Shown: one piece after another, positions 38,798-58,225 of the stretch
Layout: each line of letters starts with the position of its first letter
Position numbering within the stretch: the first letter of the stretch is position 1
Source of the DNA: Pedobacter ginsengisoli
GTDB taxonomy: Bacteria; Bacteroidota; Bacteroidia; Sphingobacteriales; Sphingobacteriaceae
Length of the DNA: 64,000 nucleotides
Reading direction: 5' to 3'
NCBI RefSeq assembly: GCF_030244015.1
Contig: NZ_JASSYX010000003.1
Coordinates: forward strand, 248,001 to 312,000
Program-made: the position numbers and the translations under genes
The notes under the pieces: model-generated
What the model saw: only the letters and a program-made list of their open reading frames with translations
Database searches by the model: none
What the model was told of the DNA's origin: nothing

Positions 38798-38827
38798 TTA
38801 TTAATATGATTTAAATCATATTAATAA
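38798..38827. promoter_or_regulatory. 30-bp perfect palindrome, candidate Crp/Fnr operator of the nos operon
   Basis: A perfect 30-bp palindrome with the centre ATATGATTTAAATCATAT. The core is TGA-TTTAAA-TCA, the TGA-N6-TCA pattern also found at norB, ric and other promoters here. Its centre (38812.5) is 36.5 bp from the end of a poor -7 match, TATCATTA (38776-38783, minus strand), and 64 bp from the cytochrome c start codon. Confidence 0.75.
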
Positions 38828-38883: not shown

Positions 38884-40143
38884 ATGATTAAAACAGTGAA
38901 ACATCCATCTCCGCTATTTATGCAAACCATTCAGTTCAACAGTATTAAGTGGATCAGAATTGCCCTGATCAATTTTTTTATCGTCGCCCTGGCAGGCGTC
39001 GTTTTACGGTACAAGATAAATTTCCCGTTACCACTGATTAACCAAAAATATTTATTGCACGGTCATTCACATTTCGCATTTGCAGGCTGGGTATCCCTGG
39101 CACTAATGGCCTTGATGGTAAATTACCTCATCAAATCCGGACAGACAACCAATTGCAAAAAATACCATTGGATACTCATGGCCAATACAGTTACTGCATA
39201 TGGTATGCTAATTACGTTCATTTTCCAGGGATACGCAGCGCTTTCCATTGCATTTTCCACGCTATCGATTTTCGTTTCCTATTTCTTCATCTTCTATTGC
39301 TGGAAAGATCTGAGATGCATAAAGGAAGGTCAGCATATAACAATCTGGTTTAAATCCGCGCTGATACTTTTAGGGGTTTCTTCAATCGGGCCCTTTGCAT
39401 TGGCTTATTTAATGGCCAGCCATATCGTTGTTCAGGATCTTTATTTTTCAGCCATTTATTTTTTTCTCCACTTTCAGTACAATGGCTGGTTTATATTTGC
39501 ATGTCTGGGACTGCTATTCTCCTTACTCAAAGGAGAAAGTCAGCTAAATTTATCAAAGATCAGTAAGAACCTTTTCTATATCCTGGCATTGACCGTTGTT
39601 CCCACCTATTTGCTGTCTATCCTGGGACTAAAAGTACCATCCTATTTATTTTGGATTGCAGCGATCTCAGCAGTACTTCAATTGGGTGTACTTTTTTATA
39701 ATTACAGACTTTTACAAGTAATTCACAACAGCCCTGACATCCGATTGAACAAAATGACAAATTATTTATGGGCACTGGCATATGCTTCATTTTGCCTGAA
39801 AATCATTTTACAGAGCTTATCCATTATCCCATATCTTAGTGACTTCGCTTTTAGCCTCAGACCTGTAATTATAGGTTACCTGCATCTGTGCTTTCTGGGT
39901 GTTATTTCCTTCTTCATTCTTGGCGTTTTTGTCGAGATCCTGGCAAAAGGAGGCATGGAGTTGAGCAAATCAGGGCTTTTTATTTTTATTCTCGGGGTAT
40001 TATTGCAGGAAGGTATGTTAATGTTACAGGCTTTCGATGCCATTATATTCCAAACACCATTTAACACAAATATAATTTTATTCCTGAGTGCCATTGTAAT
40101 GGCAACCGGGCTTGCGAGAATATTCCTGAAAAATAACTTTTAG
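38884..40143 (+). CDS. Polytopic membrane protein related to haem-copper oxidase subunit I
   Basis: A 419-aa protein with about 11-12 membrane helices. HGHSHFAFAGWVSLALMAL (about residue 59) and GYLHLCFLGVISFFILG (about residue 330) place histidines in helices in the manner of haem-copper oxidase subunit I relatives. It lacks a full set of recognisable copper and haem ligands. An internal ATG at 38920 is an alternative start. It diverges from the nosZ operon with FNR-like sites in between, so it probably belongs to the NO/N2O regulon. A similar protein is encoded at 41598-42890. The function is unknown. Confidence 0.65.
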   Translation: MIKTVKHPSPLFMQTIQFNSIKWIRIALINFFIVALAGVVLRYKINFPLPLINQKYLLHGHSHFAFAGWVSLALMALMVNYLIKSGQTTNCKKYHWILMANTVTAYGMLITFIFQGYAALSIAFSTLSIFVSYFFIFYCWKDLRCIKEGQHITIWFKSALILLGVSSIGPFALAYLMASHIVVQDLYFSAIYFFLHFQYNGWFIFACLGLLFSLLKGESQLNLSKISKNLFYILALTVVPTYLLSILGLKVPSYLFWIAAISAVLQLGVLFYNYRLLQVIHNSPDIRLNKMTNYLWALAYASFCLKIILQSLSIIPYLSDFAFSLRPVIIGYLHLCFLGVISFFILGVFVEILAKGGMELSKSGLFIFILGVLLQEGMLMLQAFDAIIFQTPFNTNIILFLSAIVMATGLARIFLKNNF

Positions 40144-41275: not shown

Positions 41276-41611
41276 CTAGTACCCTTCCAGTGCCCTTATT
41301 CCTTCAGCGGATATGAATTCGTAGTTCCATTCCGGCTCCCAAACAAGGGCGACCTCTGTTATAAAATCAGGAAAATTCCGCTCCATACAATTTTTAACAG
41401 CCGATAAAATACTTTCTCCCATAGGACAGAATTTTGAGGACAAGGTCATTTCCAGTACAATGCACATTTTAGCCGCATCGAGTTTTATCCTATAGATCAA
41501 ACCCAGGTCAACAATGTTGACGTCCAATTCCGGATCAATAACGGTTTTTAAGGCATTTATAAAATCGCCTCTCTTACTGGATAAATGTGACGGAACATCA
41601 AATGTGATCAT
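41276..41611 (-). CDS. SufT/MIP18-like Fe-S assembly factor (DUF59)
   Basis: A 111-aa protein with the DUF59 signature VIDPELDVNIVDLGLIYRI and a conserved SKFCPMGESI cysteine segment. Members help load iron-sulfur clusters onto target proteins. It overlaps the end of the membrane-protein gene at 41598 by 14 bases and is the last gene of the norB operon, which suits repair or assembly of clusters under NO stress. Confidence 0.85.
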   Translation of the reverse strand: MITFDVPSHLSSKRGDFINALKTVIDPELDVNIVDLGLIYRIKLDAAKMCIVLEMTLSSKFCPMGESILSAVKNCMERNFPDFITEVALVWEPEWNYEFISAEGIRALEGY

Positions 41612-42890
41612 AATCTTCAGTCTTAGTTTTATGCAAAAGCAGGCAAATGATCTGCGTACAGTAACTCAAAGCTGTTATGATGAGGCTACATACACCTATA
41701 AATTTCAGCGTAGAGGAAACGAGAATAAAACCTACAGTAAATGCCAGTAAAAACGAAATAAATGCAGCAAACTGGATATATAGCAGTAAGCTATTTATGA
41801 GTTCCGCGGGAACTGGGGTTTTAACCTTCCCTGTTAAATGTCCATAATGCTTCAGCCAAACAACAAAGGGCAATGTTTTGAAAGTCTGCCCCAACACCAA
41901 AGTACTGATCCATCCCATAAAGACTAGAATTCCATAAAGCATGGACATATTTACTGTAAAGGGATCATTTCTTAAATGGTAATACAATATAAAAGGCAGG
42001 ATCAATATACCAGCGGTGAGAAAGACAAATGAAAACAAAGTCTTCATCATCGGAAGGTCGACTTCCTTCCGGATACGTGATTTAAAACAACGGAAAATAT
42101 AAAACAGATAAAAAGACACGCCTGCAGCACCCAGCAGGACAATAAAATAAGTCATAAAACCAATCCCCTGAAAATATCCGTCTATGAGAAACGATAAAAG
42201 CGCTGCATTTATAAAATAATAACTTAGAGAAAGGGGATATTTCCTTTGATATTTAGAGACCAGGAACATAGGGACCAACTTTGCGCTGACCCCAACAATG
42301 AGCATCAGAAACCATCCCGCAATCCCCATGTGCGCGTGTAATCTGAGAAAGTGCAGGTGATCCTTTTGAAAAAAGGAAAACCGGAAATTAAATACCATTA
42401 AAGTACCTAGCAGAGCCGTTAAAGTTAGCCATAGACAAGATGTAATGATAAATTCCTGAAAAATAGACTCCTGCTTTTTATGCTTAACCGTAAAGAAAAC
42501 ATTGACATTAAATAATATAATCCCTGTAAGGACCAGCACACTGCCTGTCTGCATATATAATCCCGGATCAAAAATCCAAAAGCAATAAATAAGGAGAATT
42601 ATCCCGGGGACAAAGAAAGCCAGGCTGAACCAGGAAAGTCTGAGGCTGTATAATTCCGTTTCCAGTATAACAGGAAGCAATTGATACAATGCACCAAATA
42701 TGATCATTGTTCCCCATCCTAATGCCGCTGTATGGGTCAGTGCCAGGACCTTTGGCTGAAAATAATGTCCGGATAAAGCTCCAACAGAAAACAAGAGCAT
42801 TATGGTCAGTGTCAGAAAAAATAAGCCTGCGAGCAAATAATGGGTTACAACAATTTTATAAAGCGGGTTATGATGACTGACAGCGCTCAT
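41598..42890 (-). CDS. Polytopic membrane protein related to haem-copper oxidase subunit I
   Basis: A 430-aa protein with about 12 helices. Histidines lie in LALTHTAALGWGTMIIFGALYQLLPVI (about residue 52) and HFLRLHAHMGIAGWFLMLIVG (about residue 193), the pattern found in oxidase subunit I relatives that accompany NO reductases in Bacteroidota. It is translationally coupled to the DUF2249 gene (ATGA at 42887-42890) and overlaps the SufT-like gene. It may bind haem or sense or transport something linked to NO; no function is established. It resembles the protein at 38884-40143. Confidence 0.65.
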   Translation of the reverse strand: MSAVSHHNPLYKIVVTHYLLAGLFFLTLTIMLLFSVGALSGHYFQPKVLALTHTAALGWGTMIIFGALYQLLPVILETELYSLRLSWFSLAFFVPGIILLIYCFWIFDPGLYMQTGSVLVLTGIILFNVNVFFTVKHKKQESIFQEFIITSCLWLTLTALLGTLMVFNFRFSFFQKDHLHFLRLHAHMGIAGWFLMLIVGVSAKLVPMFLVSKYQRKYPLSLSYYFINAALLSFLIDGYFQGIGFMTYFIVLLGAAGVSFYLFYIFRCFKSRIRKEVDLPMMKTLFSFVFLTAGILILPFILYYHLRNDPFTVNMSMLYGILVFMGWISTLVLGQTFKTLPFVVWLKHYGHLTGKVKTPVPAELINSLLLYIQFAAFISFLLAFTVGFILVSSTLKFIGVCSLIITALSYCTQIICLLLHKTKTEDYDHI

Positions 42891-46717: not shown

Positions 46718-46762
46718 CGAAGTTAGTACCTGCGGCCTTTATCACCCGTGACGTTAATCACA
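46718..46762 (-). promoter_or_regulatory. Autoregulatory operator of the Crp/Fnr gene
   Basis: CGTGA-CGTTAA-TCACA (46747-46762) matches the CRP consensus TGTGA-N6-TCACA at 9 of 10 positions. TAACTTCG (46718-46725, minus strand) is a one-off -7 box; the centre-to-G distance is again 36.5 bp. The start codon is at 46680. Confidence 0.7.
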
Positions 46763-46946
46763 CATACACCTGATTTTTATCATCCATTGAGCCTATCTTT
46801 TTTTGAATAGTTAAATAAAGGCTTAGCTAATTTCCGGATCAGGACATGTACGCGACTTATTTGTGGAAAATATCTTTTTGACTCCCCCGTCATCTGATAT
46901 AATATGATCGGAATCACTTTTTTAGCTTCTTAATATCAGGCCAATT

Positions 46947-46962
46947 GATGATAGCTATCATC
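46947..46962 (+). promoter_or_regulatory. Candidate Crp/Fnr operator of the stress-protein operon
   Basis: GATGATAGCTATCATC is a perfect 16-bp palindrome containing TGAT-AGCT-ATCA, 8 of 10 of the FNR consensus, with a TGA-N6-TCA core. It is centred 55 bases before the universal stress protein start. The 8 bases at the 36.5-bp position (GAAATTTA, 46984-46991) fit the -7 box poorly. The rest of the 330-base gap shows nothing else of note. Confidence 0.6.
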
Positions 46963-52486: not shown

Positions 52487-52894
52487 TTACGGGTTGATTT
52501 TAGCAAATATGATCCCAGCGACAATCGCCTGCATTAAGCCATAAGAAAACCAACTTAAAACCATTAAAACAGTGATATCCAATGCGCTGAACGTAATCCA
52601 CATCACAGGTAGTAAAGCCACAATAGCATATACAAAACCAAATTCCAGACCCCTCAAAAGAAAGGAACCGTGAAACAGGCTTTTGAATCTTTCCCAGAAC
52701 CAGGAAAGCGCCAGGCTAATGATAAATGCGTGGAGGTAGAACAGCAGGTCCCTGTTGCCATCAGAATTGAAAAGGGGGTTATTGTATTCGATAAATAAAC
52801 CAGGAAATAACCTGACCGCCATATACAGCCCGCCGTAACATATTATAAATAATATTGTCCCTGCTATGAGTCCGGGAAAGATGACTTTTTTCAT
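52487..52894 (-). CDS. Small polytopic membrane protein
   Basis: A 135-aa protein with four predicted membrane helices (FPGLIAGTILFIICYGGLYMA, LLFYLHAFIISLALSWFW, FGFVYAIVALLPVMWITF, VLMVLSWFSYGLMQAIVAGIIF). It follows the second yceI gene by 4 bases and ends the operon that begins with the 596-aa protein. I do not recognise the family beyond general resemblance to small hypothetical membrane proteins of Bacteroidota. Confidence 0.7.
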   Translation of the reverse strand: MKKVIFPGLIAGTILFIICYGGLYMAVRLFPGLFIEYNNPLFNSDGNRDLLFYLHAFIISLALSWFWERFKSLFHGSFLLRGLEFGFVYAIVALLPVMWITFSALDITVLMVLSWFSYGLMQAIVAGIIFAKINP

Positions 52895-52898
52895 TTTA

Positions 52899-53510
52899 CT
52901 AATTTAAAATATTCACTTTAAGTACAAATTCTGCGCTCAGCATATCGTTGGTTTTAATCATGCCCCCTAATCTTCTTGGTGGAACGATATCAAAATCTGA
53001 GAAGTTTATGGTTTGACTTCCGATCAACGTGAGCTTTGCCTTCCCGCTTGGAATAGTCCTGTAATTTATACTGTACCTTTTTTTAATCCCTGCAAGCTCT
53101 ATGTTAACTGTTCCTTTAATAAGTTCGGCTTCTCCACCCTTGTCAGGGTATTTGCTAAGGTTTATAAAACTGATCCGGATTTTTGGAAATTCCTTTTGCT
53201 TCAATGTTCTCCTTAAATCTTTAGTCATCATTAGATTGTGGCAATCAAAGCTTTGTACATCAAGTACCATGGAGCCTGTGATTTGTACGGGTTCATTCTG
53301 ATCCGGTCCATAGATGGTTAAAGTGTCGGGTTTAGGATAATCAGGAATTATACAGCTAAACTTATTGATGTTGGTGCTTCCGTTAACTTTTAGTGTGCAG
53401 TCTTTACCCAGTACCCACTTAACTGCAGGAGATTTAACTGCGGGTCTCCAGAACGCTGTGTAAAGGCTGACGAATAAAAGAAGTGATTTGAGTAAAGCAC
53501 TCATGATCAT
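52899..53510 (-). CDS. YceI family periplasmic protein (second copy)
   Basis: A 203-aa YceI-like protein with a signal-like N-terminus (LLKSLLLFVSLYTAFWRP) and strands such as CTLKVNGSTNINKFSCIIPDY, where other members read NVHD, and SQTINFSDFDIVPPRRLGGMI. It overlaps the 596-aa gene by 4 bases (ATGA), so it is translationally coupled. It is diverged from the copy at 51732. Confidence 0.78.
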   Translation of the reverse strand: MIMSALLKSLLLFVSLYTAFWRPAVKSPAVKWVLGKDCTLKVNGSTNINKFSCIIPDYPKPDTLTIYGPDQNEPVQITGSMVLDVQSFDCHNLMMTKDLRRTLKQKEFPKIRISFINLSKYPDKGGEAELIKGTVNIELAGIKKRYSINYRTIPSGKAKLTLIGSQTINFSDFDIVPPRRLGGMIKTNDMLSAEFVLKVNILN

Positions 53511-55297
53511 ATAAGGGCGGGCCGGACTGAACTCACAAGTTTATTGCTGATCATTTCGAACCGGTGTAACTGATCATGATCCCAGATCTGCTTTGCCAGA
53601 TCTGATTGAATAATAAGATCTTTATAATACTTGACACCGGCGGTTAGCTGATCATAGAATTTGCTGAAATATTTTGCCTTTTTAGCGCTAATCTCTAGTG
53701 TACCCTCAATTTCTTTCCTGAGATAGTCTACATATAATCCAAATTCCTTAACAAACAGGTTTGGCCTGTTTACTCCACCAAGCACGTTCTCTCTGCCATA
53801 AATATGTCCAACCATTTCTTTCAGACTGTATTCACCAGAGAAATAAGCAAGATTGGGCCCGGGGCAGATACTGACTGCCTGGTTTTCCCTGGGCTTCAGT
53901 ATATTGTACTTTAGATAGGCTGAATTACATAAACCTACACATAAACACAATTTTTCTGTAATTTTACTTATTTCACGGGTCAGCTGTTCCTGAGGAATGG
54001 CTGATGATTTCAGCTGCCTGATCTTCAGATGCTGATACTCCCTTGAGGCAGTGCAAATTGGTTCATCGGTAAATTCTGTATTGCTGCACAGGTATTTCTT
54101 AGTGCAGGGACTCCCGGGGCGCCCGCGTTCTATCCTTTCCAGCCGTTGCCGCTCGGATGTGCTCTTGCGAAAATTGTTGAAGGGGATACCCAAAGGAGAA
54201 GCATTACTCAGATAAAAGTCATTTTCATCTGCTTGTTTAAGATCACTGAGTGTGTTCACATCTACGCTGGTTGCTTCTGGAACGAGTAAGAACGGGCTTC
54301 CCCAGCCAGTGGCGTCGAGTTGGTAGTAATTGATCAGGAATTCGTGTTCTTCTGATGTACCTATCCCCCCCTGTACAGTGATCAGCTGTACGGGGTTTAA
54401 ACTAGGAACAGGCATGTTTTTTATCTCCAGCGTTTGCTGATAAAGGTCGAGCAGTTCCTGGTATAGTGTTTTTCTGTTGTCTTTAAATTCCTGAAGTATT
54501 GGACCAAGCAGCAGGCCCTCAGTCGCAAATGCATGTCCTCCGCAGTTAAGCCCCGACTCAATTCTGAATTCGGAAACCCATAATCCTTTTTTGGCCAGTA
54601 CTTTTGCCTGTATTATTGCCGATCGGTAATCACTCACTTTTAGGATGATCTTTTTCAGGAAGTGGCCGTCTGCCGAGGGTAGAAAACACTCCAGTTCTTC
54701 CATATAGCTGAAAAGCCTTGGGTTTAAACCAGCTGAAATAACTACTGATGTGTTAAGATTGCTCGCGGCGAATCCCCGGATCGCGGCCAGTGCGTCGGTA
54801 TTTTTGTCGCCGGTATAAATTCCATTCTGATAGTTTGCCTTATCAACTTTGGACATGATATTTACATTGATGTCACCCGCTTTAATTCCTTCCTTTAGTT
54901 CTTTAATTAGCCTGTCTTTACCGATACCTTCAGGCATTTGGAGCATGATATTATATTTGGACCTCAATCCCGAGCTTGACGGGAGCAGGTCAAAATACTT
55001 GCAAAGATCATTGGGTTCATCGAAGCTTAGTGCTTTTAATGCAGTAATTTGACCGGATACCAGTTTTTGCAAAAGATTCAGGTAAGCTGTAATTCTCAGG
55101 GCTCTTCCATCATGGTCGGTTTTGCTGATCGGATGGTAAGGTTCATGATTCAATGCTGCGTGATATTTTCTCATTCTTTCAGTCAGTTCATCGTCTACAA
55201 TGGAGACTACGGAAGAGATACCGTATCTGGCTACTTTTAAAGGAGTATCTATGGAATAGCCTAAGCCAAGTACAGGGATATGAAAAGTATGTTGCAT
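53507..55297 (-). CDS. Cys-rich conserved protein of unknown function, TIM-barrel enzyme-like
   Basis: A 596-aa cytoplasmic protein. The first half has barrel-like features resembling FMN enzymes such as nitronate monooxygenase: VLGLGYSIDTPLKVARYGISSV at the N-terminus, ESGLNCGGHAFATEG near residue 253 and GGIGTSEEHEFLINYYQLDA near residue 313. The second half has clustered cysteines (CTKKYLC near 404, C at 417, CLCVGLC near 455, and CPGPN near 480), which could bind a cluster. No complete known catalytic motif was found. It is the first gene of an operon with yceI and a small membrane protein, and diverges from the fixL-like gene with a shared Crp/Fnr operator. Confidence 0.6.
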   Translation of the reverse strand: MQHTFHIPVLGLGYSIDTPLKVARYGISSVVSIVDDELTERMRKYHAALNHEPYHPISKTDHDGRALRITAYLNLLQKLVSGQITALKALSFDEPNDLCKYFDLLPSSSGLRSKYNIMLQMPEGIGKDRLIKELKEGIKAGDINVNIMSKVDKANYQNGIYTGDKNTDALAAIRGFAASNLNTSVVISAGLNPRLFSYMEELECFLPSADGHFLKKIILKVSDYRSAIIQAKVLAKKGLWVSEFRIESGLNCGGHAFATEGLLLGPILQEFKDNRKTLYQELLDLYQQTLEIKNMPVPSLNPVQLITVQGGIGTSEEHEFLINYYQLDATGWGSPFLLVPEATSVDVNTLSDLKQADENDFYLSNASPLGIPFNNFRKSTSERQRLERIERGRPGSPCTKKYLCSNTEFTDEPICTASREYQHLKIRQLKSSAIPQEQLTREISKITEKLCLCVGLCNSAYLKYNILKPRENQAVSICPGPNLAYFSGEYSLKEMVGHIYGRENVLGGVNRPNLFVKEFGLYVDYLRKEIEGTLEISAKKAKYFSKFYDQLTAGVKYYKDLIIQSDLAKQIWDHDQLHRFEMISNKLVSSVRPALI

Positions 55298-55342: not shown

Positions 55343-55409
55343 TGTGATCTTTATCACTATTGGCGATGATCCTTATTATCTAATTTTAAAACCGGGGTCA
55401 TTACATTTG
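55343..55409. promoter_or_regulatory. Shared Crp/Fnr operator and fixL-side -7 box
   Basis: TGTGA-TCTTTA-TCACT (55343-55358) matches the CRP consensus at 9 of 10 positions. On the plus strand TACATTTG (55402-55409) is an exact -7 box, 58.5 bp from the operator centre (55350.5). On the minus strand a TTTG ends exactly 36.5 bp away (at 55314), preceded by CTAC rather than TAnn. The site may thus serve both the fixL-like gene and the 596-aa protein operon. Confidence 0.75.
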
Positions 55410-55431: not shown

Positions 55432-56616
55432 ATGGAACCTGCTAAACTGCTTAAAGCTATTATTGAAACTGCGATCGACGGTATACTCACTATTGACAAC
55501 CGGGGCATAGTCGAAAGTTTAAATCCGGCTGCGCTGAAGCTCTTTGGATATACTGAAGAGGAAGTAATCGGAAACAACGTTTCTATGCTGATGCCGGAAC
55601 CAGATAAAAGCAGTCATGATGATTATCTTCACAGGTACCAGAGTACCGGCGAAAAACGCATCATTGGAAAAGGCAGGGAAGTCAGGGGATTGCGCAAAGA
55701 TGGAACAACTTTTCCGTTCCGCCTTGCAGTGAGTGAGGTACAATATGATGACCGTACCATTTACACGGGGTTCATTCATGACCTGTCAAGGGAAAAGGAA
55801 GCTGAACAGCGTCTGAAGGAATATGCATCGGAATTGGAGGAACTGGTTGAGGAGCGCACAAAATCTTTAAAAAAGATGGTAAATGCCTTGAGTGAGGCTA
55901 AAGAAGAGGTAAGCTTGTCTCTGGAAAAGGAAAAAGAGCTGAACCAGATGAAGAGCCGGTTTGTTTCCATGGCTTCCCATGAATTCAGGACTCCGCTAAG
56001 TTCGGTACAGCTTTCTTCGGTGCTGATTGAGAAGTATGCGGAACCTTATGACAATGTTCACATTAAAAAACATGTAAGCAAGATCAAGAATGCTGTAGGA
56101 AACCTCACTACAATCCTAAATGATTTTCTTTCACTGGAGCGCCTGGAAGCTGGCAAGGTAGAGCCTGCCTTTACTCCTTTTGATCTGGTAAAACTTTCTG
56201 AAGAAGTAACGGAGGAAATGCAGATGATTGCGAAGGAAGACCAGAATATTATCTATCAGCATACTGGTTTGGAAAGCATGGTAAATCTGGACCAGAATTT
56301 ATTGAGGAACTGCATGATCAACCTGATCTCCAATTCGATCAAGTATTCTGGTGAACATACTTTTATTGAATTTAACACAGAAATCAGTGATTCGAAATGC
56401 ACAGTGATGATCAGGGACAATGGCATTGGTATTCCGCAGTCAGAACACAAGAATATGTTTCAGCCCTTTTTCAGGGCCAATAATACGGGCAACATTCCGG
56501 GAACAGGTCTCGGACTCAACATTGTATTGCGCTATGCCAGGCTGATGCACGGTGAGCTGCATTTTGAAAGTGAAATTAATAAGGGAGCTAAGTTTATCCT
56601 TTCATTTACTAAATAA
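55432..56616 (+). CDS. FixL-like haem-PAS oxygen-sensing histidine kinase
   Basis: A 394-aa kinase without membrane helices. Residues about 5-120 form a PAS domain very like that of rhizobial FixL: NVSMLMPEPDKSSHDDYLHRYQ, then IIGKGREVRGLRKDGTTFPF. His62 and Arg82 have the same sequence context and 20-residue spacing as the proximal haem histidine (His200) and distal arginine (Arg220) of Bradyrhizobium FixL. A coiled coil follows (about 118-172), then the H-box MASHEFRTPLSS with His183 and an ATPase domain (about 285-394, DNGIGIP and GTGLGLNIVLRYA). It probably switches on when O2 is low. The receiver-Crp hybrid follows 18 bases later. Confidence 0.88.
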   Translation: MEPAKLLKAIIETAIDGILTIDNRGIVESLNPAALKLFGYTEEEVIGNNVSMLMPEPDKSSHDDYLHRYQSTGEKRIIGKGREVRGLRKDGTTFPFRLAVSEVQYDDRTIYTGFIHDLSREKEAEQRLKEYASELEELVEERTKSLKKMVNALSEAKEEVSLSLEKEKELNQMKSRFVSMASHEFRTPLSSVQLSSVLIEKYAEPYDNVHIKKHVSKIKNAVGNLTTILNDFLSLERLEAGKVEPAFTPFDLVKLSEEVTEEMQMIAKEDQNIIYQHTGLESMVNLDQNLLRNCMINLISNSIKYSGEHTFIEFNTEISDSKCTVMIRDNGIGIPQSEHKNMFQPFFRANNTGNIPGTGLGLNIVLRYARLMHGELHFESEINKGAKFILSFTK

Positions 56617-56634
56617 AACCAAACGACAGAAATT

Positions 56635-57693
56635 ATGAAAAAACACAGTATTCTAATCATTGAAGACAATGAGGACATCCGTGAAAGTACAGCGGAGATA
56701 CTTGAGTTGGGAAATTATGCTGTGATCAAAGCATCTAATGGCAAACAAGGTGTTGAGCTGGCTTTAAAGCATATTCCCGACCTTATACTTTGTGACATCA
56801 TGATGCCTGAACTGGATGGTTTTGGTGTGCTTCATCTTCTGGCCAAAAATCCGGAGACCTCTGTGATTCCCTTTATTTTTCTGACGGCTAAGACTGAAAG
56901 GATCGACATGCGCAAGGGCATGGAGATGGGCGCAGATGATTACCTTACGAAGCCGTTCGATGAAGTGGAGTTGTTCAATGCTATTGAATGCAGGCTCAAT
57001 AAAAAAGATATACAAAAAAAGATCTACAGTCAGTCACTGGAAAAGCTGGGTACGCTTTTGCAAGGGAATAAAGGAAATGACGAACTAAAAAAACTGGTAT
57101 CTGAACGCAAAGTAAGACATATCAAAAAAAAACAGATCATTTATTATGAGGGAGATTCAGTCAATGGCATCTATCTGGTAGTTTCAGGAAATGTTAAAAC
57201 GCTGAAAATTGCTGCTGACGGCCGGGAACTGCTGACAGGCATGTATGGTGCTGAGGAGTATTTTGGCGTTCCGGCCTTGCTCGCCGGTGAAAATTACAGG
57301 GACACGGCAGAGGCTATGGAAGATACCGCATTGTGCTTGCTGCCTAAAGAACCTGTTGAAGAATTATTGAGTAAATACCCCGACGTTGCCGGTCAGTTTA
57401 TAAAGATGCTGGCCAATAACGTGCTGATCAGGGAAGAACAATTGCTGCAACTGGCTTATAATTCAGTAAGGAAGAGAATGGCTGAGGTATTACTGCGTTT
57501 ATTTAAGCAGAATCTTGTCGGTGACACTCAAAGTCTGAGTGTTTCCCGTGATAACCTTGCGGGTATGGCGGGTATGGCGACAGAAACCGTAAGCCGGATC
57601 TTAAGCGATTTTAAAGATGAAGGCCTCATCGAAAGGAAGGCCAGCCAGATTACTATACTCGACCGGATAAAACTGCAAAACATGAAAAACTGA
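56635..57693 (+). CDS. Receiver-Crp/Fnr hybrid response regulator
   Basis: A 352-aa protein joining a CheY-like receiver (about residues 1-120; acidic pocket Glu10/Asp11, phosphoacceptor Asp54 in LILCDIMMPE, Lys in YLTKPFD) to a cNMP-type barrel (about 145-265, IIYYEGDSVNGIYLVVSGNVKTL) and a Crp/Fnr winged helix (about 280-345). The recognition helix ATETVSRILSDFKDEG has the E-x-x-S-R pattern of Fnr. It is the likely partner of the FixL-like kinase and would combine in one chain what FixJ and FixK do in rhizobia. There is no cysteine set for an Fe-S cluster. Confidence 0.9.
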   Translation: MKKHSILIIEDNEDIRESTAEILELGNYAVIKASNGKQGVELALKHIPDLILCDIMMPELDGFGVLHLLAKNPETSVIPFIFLTAKTERIDMRKGMEMGADDYLTKPFDEVELFNAIECRLNKKDIQKKIYSQSLEKLGTLLQGNKGNDELKKLVSERKVRHIKKKQIIYYEGDSVNGIYLVVSGNVKTLKIAADGRELLTGMYGAEEYFGVPALLAGENYRDTAEAMEDTALCLLPKEPVEELLSKYPDVAGQFIKMLANNVLIREEQLLQLAYNSVRKRMAEVLLRLFKQNLVGDTQSLSVSRDNLAGMAGMATETVSRILSDFKDEGLIERKASQITILDRIKLQNMKN

Positions 57694-57772: not shown

Positions 57773-58225
57773 ATGAGAGTTGTTGCGTATAGTATAAAAT
57801 CGGCCGAGAAAGAGCCACTGGCCATAGCAAATCATAAAAAACACGAGATCACCCTGATTTCCAATTCACTGTCAGCTGAAACCGCTTTTTATGCGAAGGG
57901 GAAAGAGGCTGTTGTGGTCTTTACAGATGACCTTGTTTGTGCATCAGTTATTGAAAAGCTTGCGGATCTGGGTGTAAAATATATTGCGACAAGGTCTACT
58001 GACACTTCACATATAGATCACCTGGCCGCCCGTAAGCATAACATAAAGATCGGCAACGTCCCGCACTCAGTTTTAATGCCCCTGAACCTGGAAGATCTTC
58101 CAATGGCTCTGGCTATTGAAACCATTAGGAATCTGGACAAATGGCAGATGAACAAGTGCCTTGGCGATGCCTGTGTCTGTTCAAATTCCTGTGATCAGCT
58201 CCCGGACAAAAAGATTAAAAAATAA
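57773..58225 (+). CDS. Short D-2-hydroxyacid dehydrogenase-like protein with Cys tail
   Basis: A 150-aa protein equivalent to the first catalytic-domain part of D-lactate dehydrogenase (MRVVAYSIKSAEKEPL; VVVFTDDLVCASVIEKLADLGVKYIATRSTDT; NIKIGNVP). It stops where the NAD-binding domain would begin, so it cannot be an ordinary dehydrogenase. The last 24 residues hold a tight cysteine group, C-x4-C-x-C-x3-C (NKCLGDACVCSNSC). It lies 13 bases before hemN, behind a well-formed regulon promoter, so it is probably a functional small protein rather than debris. The function is unknown. Confidence 0.75.
   Translation: MRVVAYSIKSAEKEPLAIANHKKHEITLISNSLSAETAFYAKGKEAVVVFTDDLVCASVIEKLADLGVKYIATRSTDTSHIDHLAARKHNIKIGNVPHSVLMPLNLEDLPMALAIETIRNLDKWQMNKCLGDACVCSNSCDQLPDKKIKK

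Follow-up and report, generated by a model that had tools for sequence, protein, structure and literature searches.

What kind of enzyme is Q596, a 596-residue protein encoded in Pedobacter ginsengisoli close to genes of low-oxygen respiration, and what does it do for the cell? We consider this from the gene itself, from its predicted structure and from its surroundings in a 64,000-nucleotide stretch of DNA (hereafter, the window), to which all positions below refer. An earlier note on this DNA had described the protein as fitting no family, and had suggested profile searches and structure prediction as checks. The gene and its parts are as follows.

53507..55297, minus strand: Q596 coding sequence, 596 aa, a divergent FabX-like FMN TIM-barrel enzyme (reading frame, relatives, AlphaFold2 model, FabX match)
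54164..55297, minus strand: predicted TIM barrel, residues 1-378, with a helical insert at about 36-136 after strand 2 (secondary structure of the model)
54533..54565, minus strand: RIESGLNCGGH, residues 245-255, with the proposed catalytic His255 (FabX H182) and invariant C252 (invariance, hhalign register)
54359..54370, minus strand: GGIG, residues 310-313, a proposed FMN contact (FabX G220-G221); G310, G311 and G313 are invariant
54188..54199, minus strand: SPLG, residues 367-370, corresponding to FabX S273-P-V-G and invariant in 87 relatives
53792..54163, minus strand: cysteine-rich lid, residues 379-502, with invariant C398, C415, C451, C453 and C478
54053..54106, minus strand: C398-x16-C415, the first two proposed cluster ligands (invariance, alignment to groups N and X, described below)
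53939..53947, minus strand: C451-L-C453 (CLC), further proposed cluster ligands (invariance, alignment to groups N and X)
53834..53866, minus strand: C478-PGPNLAYFSG488, a family-specific cysteine followed by YFSG, which resembles the FMN-contacting YF339-T340-G341 of FabX
53510..53791, minus strand: C-terminal helices, residues 503-596, beyond the part aligned with FabX (AlphaFold2 model, structural alignment)

A conserved gene of FabX-like architecture

The reading frame is present as first described, and comparison with its relatives shows it to be a genuine gene conserved from end to end. Open relatives that cover most or all of its length are found in 41 of 59 near genomes and in 112 of the 296 Bacteroidota genomes sampled, representing 67 of 139 genera; identity is mostly 46-67%, and nearly every carrier has a single copy. 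Their named hosts are Pedobacter, Sphingobacterium, Dyadobacter, Pontibacter, Niastella, Botryobacter and one Ignavibacteria MAG, and 86 positions are invariant among the 87 relatives compared. One genome has a decayed second copy with internal stops (G150:C1:4371179-4372862).

For direct sequence searches, the description of a protein without a family holds. Neither Q596 (against Pfam, NCBIfam and PDB sequences) nor an alignment of 30 family members (against Pfam and PDB) gave a useful match, and a PHROGs search with Q596 returned nothing useful. The nitronate monooxygenase (NMO) family PF03060 was not matched by Q596 at E<=10, nor was an NMO match found among the 30 members; TIGR02814 (PfaD) and TIGR03151 (FabK) are likewise unmatched, Q596 having no NCBIfam hit at E<=10. 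A match to an apolipoprotein A-I profile (E 0.016) was dismissed because it is a helical, low-complexity match, over residues 518-587.

Structure and profile comparison, however, do place the protein. From the 30-member alignment AlphaFold2 predicted an FMN-type TIM barrel, then a lid, then C-terminal helices (pTM 0.88, pLDDT 84), and we regard the barrel fold as well supported. The best VIA-align match is FabX of Helicobacter pylori (Z 20.8 over 320 residues, rmsd 3.7), followed by PfaD (19.9), the mycobacterial FAS enoyl reductase (17.8), FabK (17.8) and NMO (17.2). The FabX-like architecture is thus shown by computation, with the lid itself poorly modelled (pLDDT 44 at residues 401-410; pTM 0.51 when the lid and C-terminus were modelled in isolation).

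For the profile comparisons we used two FabX-like groups drawn from other genomes of the phylum, group N (L132, L167-L178) and group X (L126-L129, L137-L166), the latter matching FabX at E 7e-28. Against a merged profile of groups N and X, FabX and FabK, the Q596 profile gave an hhalign E of 8.7e-9 (probability 95.7%), where reversed profiles, serving as background control, gave E 0.19-0.56. Against single FabX-like groups the match was weak (E 0.0058 and 0.012), yet the same landmarks aligned; of these comparisons, we find only that with the merged profile convincing. Together, structure and profiles show that Q596 almost certainly belongs to the NMO/FabK/FabX/PfaD superfamily of FMN TIM-barrel enzymes, and the best reading is that it represents an unnamed subfamily within it. 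Both N and X match PF03060, which Q596 does not. FabK and the nitronate monooxygenases share the barrel (Z about 17), but they are without a cysteine-rich lid and have no direct sequence match to Q596.

In the Foldseek ranking PfaD and the trans-acting enoyl reductases (4z9r, 4cw5) come first and second, PfaD with E 6.6e-7, which raises the alternative that Q596 reduces rather than dehydrogenates, as a FabK/PfaD-type enoyl reductase working with a polyketide or PUFA-type synthase. The host genome does encode a PfaA-like multidomain synthase, in an open frame of 2348 aa; its NMO-type reductase domain carries ECGGH (G000:C3, about 151827-153416; L091). This synthase thus has a reductase domain of its own, to which the Q596 profile has no significant match, and the host already encodes FabK. 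No synthase partner was recognised in the neighbourhood of Q596 and none of 66 related loci showed linkage to such a synthase, so that we hold this alternative to be improbable.

Predicted active site and cysteine-rich lid

FabX (HP0773; PDB 7e1q) binds both FMN and a [4Fe-4S] cluster; its catalytic residue is H182 and its cluster ligands are C300, C304, C308 and C320 (PMC8626469). It acts as an acyl-ACP dehydrogenase/isomerase that needs O2 as acceptor, its S273 hydrogen-bonds the catalytic histidine, and no other characterised member of the family has such a cluster (PMC8626469). Like FabX, Q596 combines a TIM barrel with a cysteine-rich lid and shares the GGH histidine, the SPxG serine and the N-I-(L/M), GG and YF(S/T)G landmarks. 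Unlike FabX, it is 596 rather than 363 residues long, with helices inserted after strand 2 and an extra helical segment at the C-terminus.

The two turns that the earlier note had singled out as flavin-like, GLNCGGHAFATEG around residues 249-261 and GGIGTSEEHEF at 310-320, are indeed there, and both hold invariant residues. In the first, whose FabX counterpart is VEGPLSGGH182, H255 is invariant in the 87 relatives and aligned with the GGH of groups N and X; in the second, GGIG is aligned with GGIF/GGFG of relatives. Residue by residue, FabX N99 aligns with N146, H182 with H255, G220/G221 with G310/G311, T243 with S334, S273 with S367 and F339-T340-G341 with F486-S487-G488; in the comparison with a FabX-like group profile, SPLGIPF lines up with SPTGFPF. 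One FMN contact of FabX, Q240, is replaced by the invariant Gly331. These conserved residues make it very likely that Q596 binds FMN.

The lid pattern of Q596 differs from that of FabX. Where at least seven clustered cysteines had been counted in the second half of the protein, there are exactly seven (398, 404, 415, 451, 453, 457 and 478), five of them invariant among the 87 relatives; C404 (34%) and C457 (46%) are not conserved, and C252, inside the first motif, is invariant as well. The CX3CX3CX11C arrangement of FabX is replaced by C-x16-C..CLC..CPGPN, and in comparison with FabX and two further proteins (L179 and L180) no CX3CX3CX8-11C was found in Q596. Judged by its sequence, Q596 is a superfamily member that would fall outside FabX proper, because this ligand motif, a defining feature of that enzyme, is absent. 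L179 and L180, from two genomes of the phylum, are probably true FabX proteins with CX3CX3CX8C ligands (L179 against FabX, E 3e-71).

The four-cysteine pattern of Q596 is common to the two FabX-like groups, in which C..C..CLC aligns one for one with C398, C415, C451 and C453. To our knowledge, no cluster has been described in either group (L167-L178, L137-L166). C252 and the CPGPN cysteine C478 are additions of Q596's own, the latter having no counterpart in N or X. We consider it probable, from these conserved residues, that the lid holds an Fe-S cluster. The cysteines could instead bind zinc or act as redox thiols, which would be compatible with any substrate; the C-x16-C-x35-CxC spacing, unlike the FabX ligand motif, and the poor lid model would suit such a reading. 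We nevertheless judge it unlikely, the same cysteines being found in FabX-like relatives within the region that matches the FabX cluster domain.

Low-oxygen setting of the gene

The earlier note had placed Q596 at the head of an operon with yceI and a small membrane protein, under an operator shared with a fixL-like gene, which we recognise as encoding a generic PAS histidine kinase. The surrounding features are as follows.

52487..52894, minus strand: 135-aa membrane protein, no Pfam match
52899..53510, minus strand: YceI-like protein (Pfam E 4.5e-5), its start overlapping the Q596 stop
55343..55357, no strand assigned: Crp/Fnr-type dyad TGTGATCTTTATCAC, between Q596 and the divergent PAS histidine kinase gene and shared by both
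55432..56616, plus strand: PAS histidine kinase, divergent from Q596, sharing the dyad
56635..57693, plus strand: response regulator fused to a Crp-type sensor/HTH, a candidate regulator of the dyad

The gene order is as described, with a 4-nt overlap between the Q596 stop and the yceI-like start and the small membrane protein gene 4 nt further on. As a clue to function the operon was dropped, since neither the yceI-like gene nor the 135-aa membrane protein gene lies near any of 66 related loci (0/66); these partners are local. The PAS kinase, by comparison, recurs near Q596 relatives in Pedobacter, Dyadobacter and Pontibacter. A 150-aa protein encoded at 57773-58225, which has a cysteine-rich tail (DACVCSNSC), matches 2-hydroxyacid dehydrogenases over their N-terminal part alone; in Pedobacter it is conserved in its place between the regulator and hemN.

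The shared operator stands. A dyad of the form TGAY-N4-RTCA lies 47-115 bp upstream of the start at 36 of 45 Sphingobacteriaceae loci, against 0.5 expected from shuffles, and upstream of relatives in other families at only 6 of 42. The window holds 20 copies against 5.1 expected. Some of them precede nos genes, the divergent Usp-ADH-acetyl-CoA hydrolase genes, an ScdA/DUF2249 (Ric-type) operon, a Crp gene or a yceI gene, and those that lie between genes seem to mark out a low-oxygen/denitrification regulon. Sites in the window were noted at 38807, 38839, 41237, 46749-46960, 52460 and 55345. Besides the response regulator-Crp fusion, a separate Crp-type protein encoded near Q596 is a second candidate regulator of the dyad. 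A scan for sigma-70 promoters and terminators did no better than shuffles.

Linkage to low-oxygen genes is likewise shown by computation. In 26 of the 66 related loci hemN, cbb3, nos, nor-type or hemerythrin genes or the kinase/regulator pair lie within about 8 kb. With counts that ignore phylogenetic relatedness, nosZ is present in 55 of 111 genomes with Q596 against 44 of 184 without it (p 8e-6), and cbb3 oxidase co-occurrence is weak by the same kind of count (89/111 against 127/184, p 0.04). Of the 55 genomes with both nosZ and Q596, 16 have the two genes no more than 20 kb apart. In the nos/nor region, two proteins are without a clear Pfam match (38884-40140 and 41601-42890, the second matching only COX1 at E 0.004), and at 9 of the 66 loci the first of them is again a neighbour of the Q596 relative. 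Operator and linkage support the inclusion of Q596 in a low-oxygen/denitrification regulon, and it is from these that we infer the oxygen control itself.

The link to nosZ invites two readings closer to denitrification. A role in NosZ maturation is unlikely because half of the carriers of Q596 are without nosZ. The same half of carriers speaks against a nitronate-monooxygenase-like detoxification of nitro or nitrosated compounds arising from denitrification, a reading to which the strong link to nosZ and NO/N2O genes and the common superfamily of Q596 and NMO would lend themselves. NMO consumes O2, which would be scarce under the proposed regulon, and characterised NMOs have no cysteine-rich lid, so we give this detoxifying role little credence.

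Proposed function

The flavin-type fold, the cysteine-rich second domain and the low-oxygen gene setting all bear out the earlier description of a candidate redox enzyme of low-oxygen physiology, whose cofactors and oxygen control are predicted. By analogy, we propose that Q596 is an FMN-dependent and probably Fe-S-containing acyl-thioester oxidoreductase for conditions of scarce O2, possibly serving O2-independent synthesis of unsaturated fatty acids, and put the probability of this reading at about 0.4. The barrel (residues 1-378) would bind FMN, and His255, above the flavin, would take a proton from the alpha carbon of the substrate while a hydride passes to FMN. C398, C415, C451 and C453 of the lid would bind a [4Fe-4S] cluster for onward electron transfer, with C478, close in sequence to the FMN-contact turn, as part of the proposed cluster lid. 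The analogy with FabX, and with the UfaA protein of Neisseria gonorrhoeae, suggests as substrate an acyl thioester carried on ACP or CoA, whose dehydrogenation and isomerisation would supply unsaturated fatty acids once desaturases that depend on O2 come to a halt. Expression of the enzyme would follow that of the low-oxygen/denitrification regulon, by way of the Crp/Fnr-type site.

UfaA (NGO1024), an NMO-type protein of the gonococcus, itself a denitrifier, is induced 8-10-fold anaerobically (PMC3032703), and a further paper calls it essential for making unsaturated fatty acids anaerobically (PMC11300592). Going by these descriptions, UfaA would resemble Q596 as an NMO-type protein linked to denitrification genes; it differs in being annotated as 2-nitropropane dioxygenase-like, a family to which Q596 has no match. 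FabX too has a low-oxygen context. The gene content of carriers points the same way. FabA is found in only 3 of 296 genomes of the phylum, none of them with Q596, and in a hand-chosen comparison that ignores relatedness, a fatty acid desaturase is missing from 9 of 29 genomes that carry Q596 and from 2 of 30 that do not (p 0.02). Q596 and group N occur together in none of 12 genomes (p 0.003, relatedness ignored), with one genus holding one of each; nor do Q596 and group X share a genome, group X being confined to other lineages. We take this distribution, with the parallel to UfaA, to favour an acyl-desaturating role at low O2.

Several observations count against a FabX-like acyl role: the absent ligand motif, glycine in place of Q240, the acceptor of FabX being O2, and the finding that no fatty-acid synthesis genes were recognised among the recurrent neighbours at the 66 loci. 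Many Bacteroidota rely on branched fatty acids, and unsaturated ones may therefore be dispensable. With the same fold and cofactors, Q596 could act on a non-acyl substrate, as an FMN/Fe-S oxidoreductase that replaces some other O2-requiring step (e.g. in heme, quinone or amino acid metabolism); its recognised neighbours (hemN, cbb3, nos, nor-type and two-component genes) and a lid pattern unlike that of FabX would be in keeping with this. We think such a substrate rather unlikely, given that the structure is nearest to the acyl-ACP enzymes FabX, PfaD and FabK and that the distribution of Q596 is complementary to that of FabX-like proteins. The acyl-thioester reading can also be put in a fuller form, in which Q596 would be the missing O2-independent route to unsaturated fatty acids in facultative Bacteroidota, an FMN/[4Fe-4S] dehydrogenase/isomerase with a new cluster lid and a non-O2 acceptor (the respiratory chain or a ferredoxin), within the denitrification/low-oxygen regulon; this is a tentative and somewhat doubtful proposal.

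Annotation pipelines miss Q596 because it has no Pfam or NCBIfam name, although, mostly in single copy, it is present in more than a third of the Bacteroidota genomes sampled. Should Q596 indeed make unsaturated fatty acids in the absence of O2, this would account for the membrane fluidity of facultative Bacteroidota in soil and water poor in oxygen, FabA being missing from nearly all of these bacteria; FabX chemistry would then also extend to another arrangement of the metal site and another electron acceptor. Even with another substrate, Q596, tied as it is to N2O-reducing gene clusters, would mark low-oxygen life in the bacteria that carry it, and might even be required for it.
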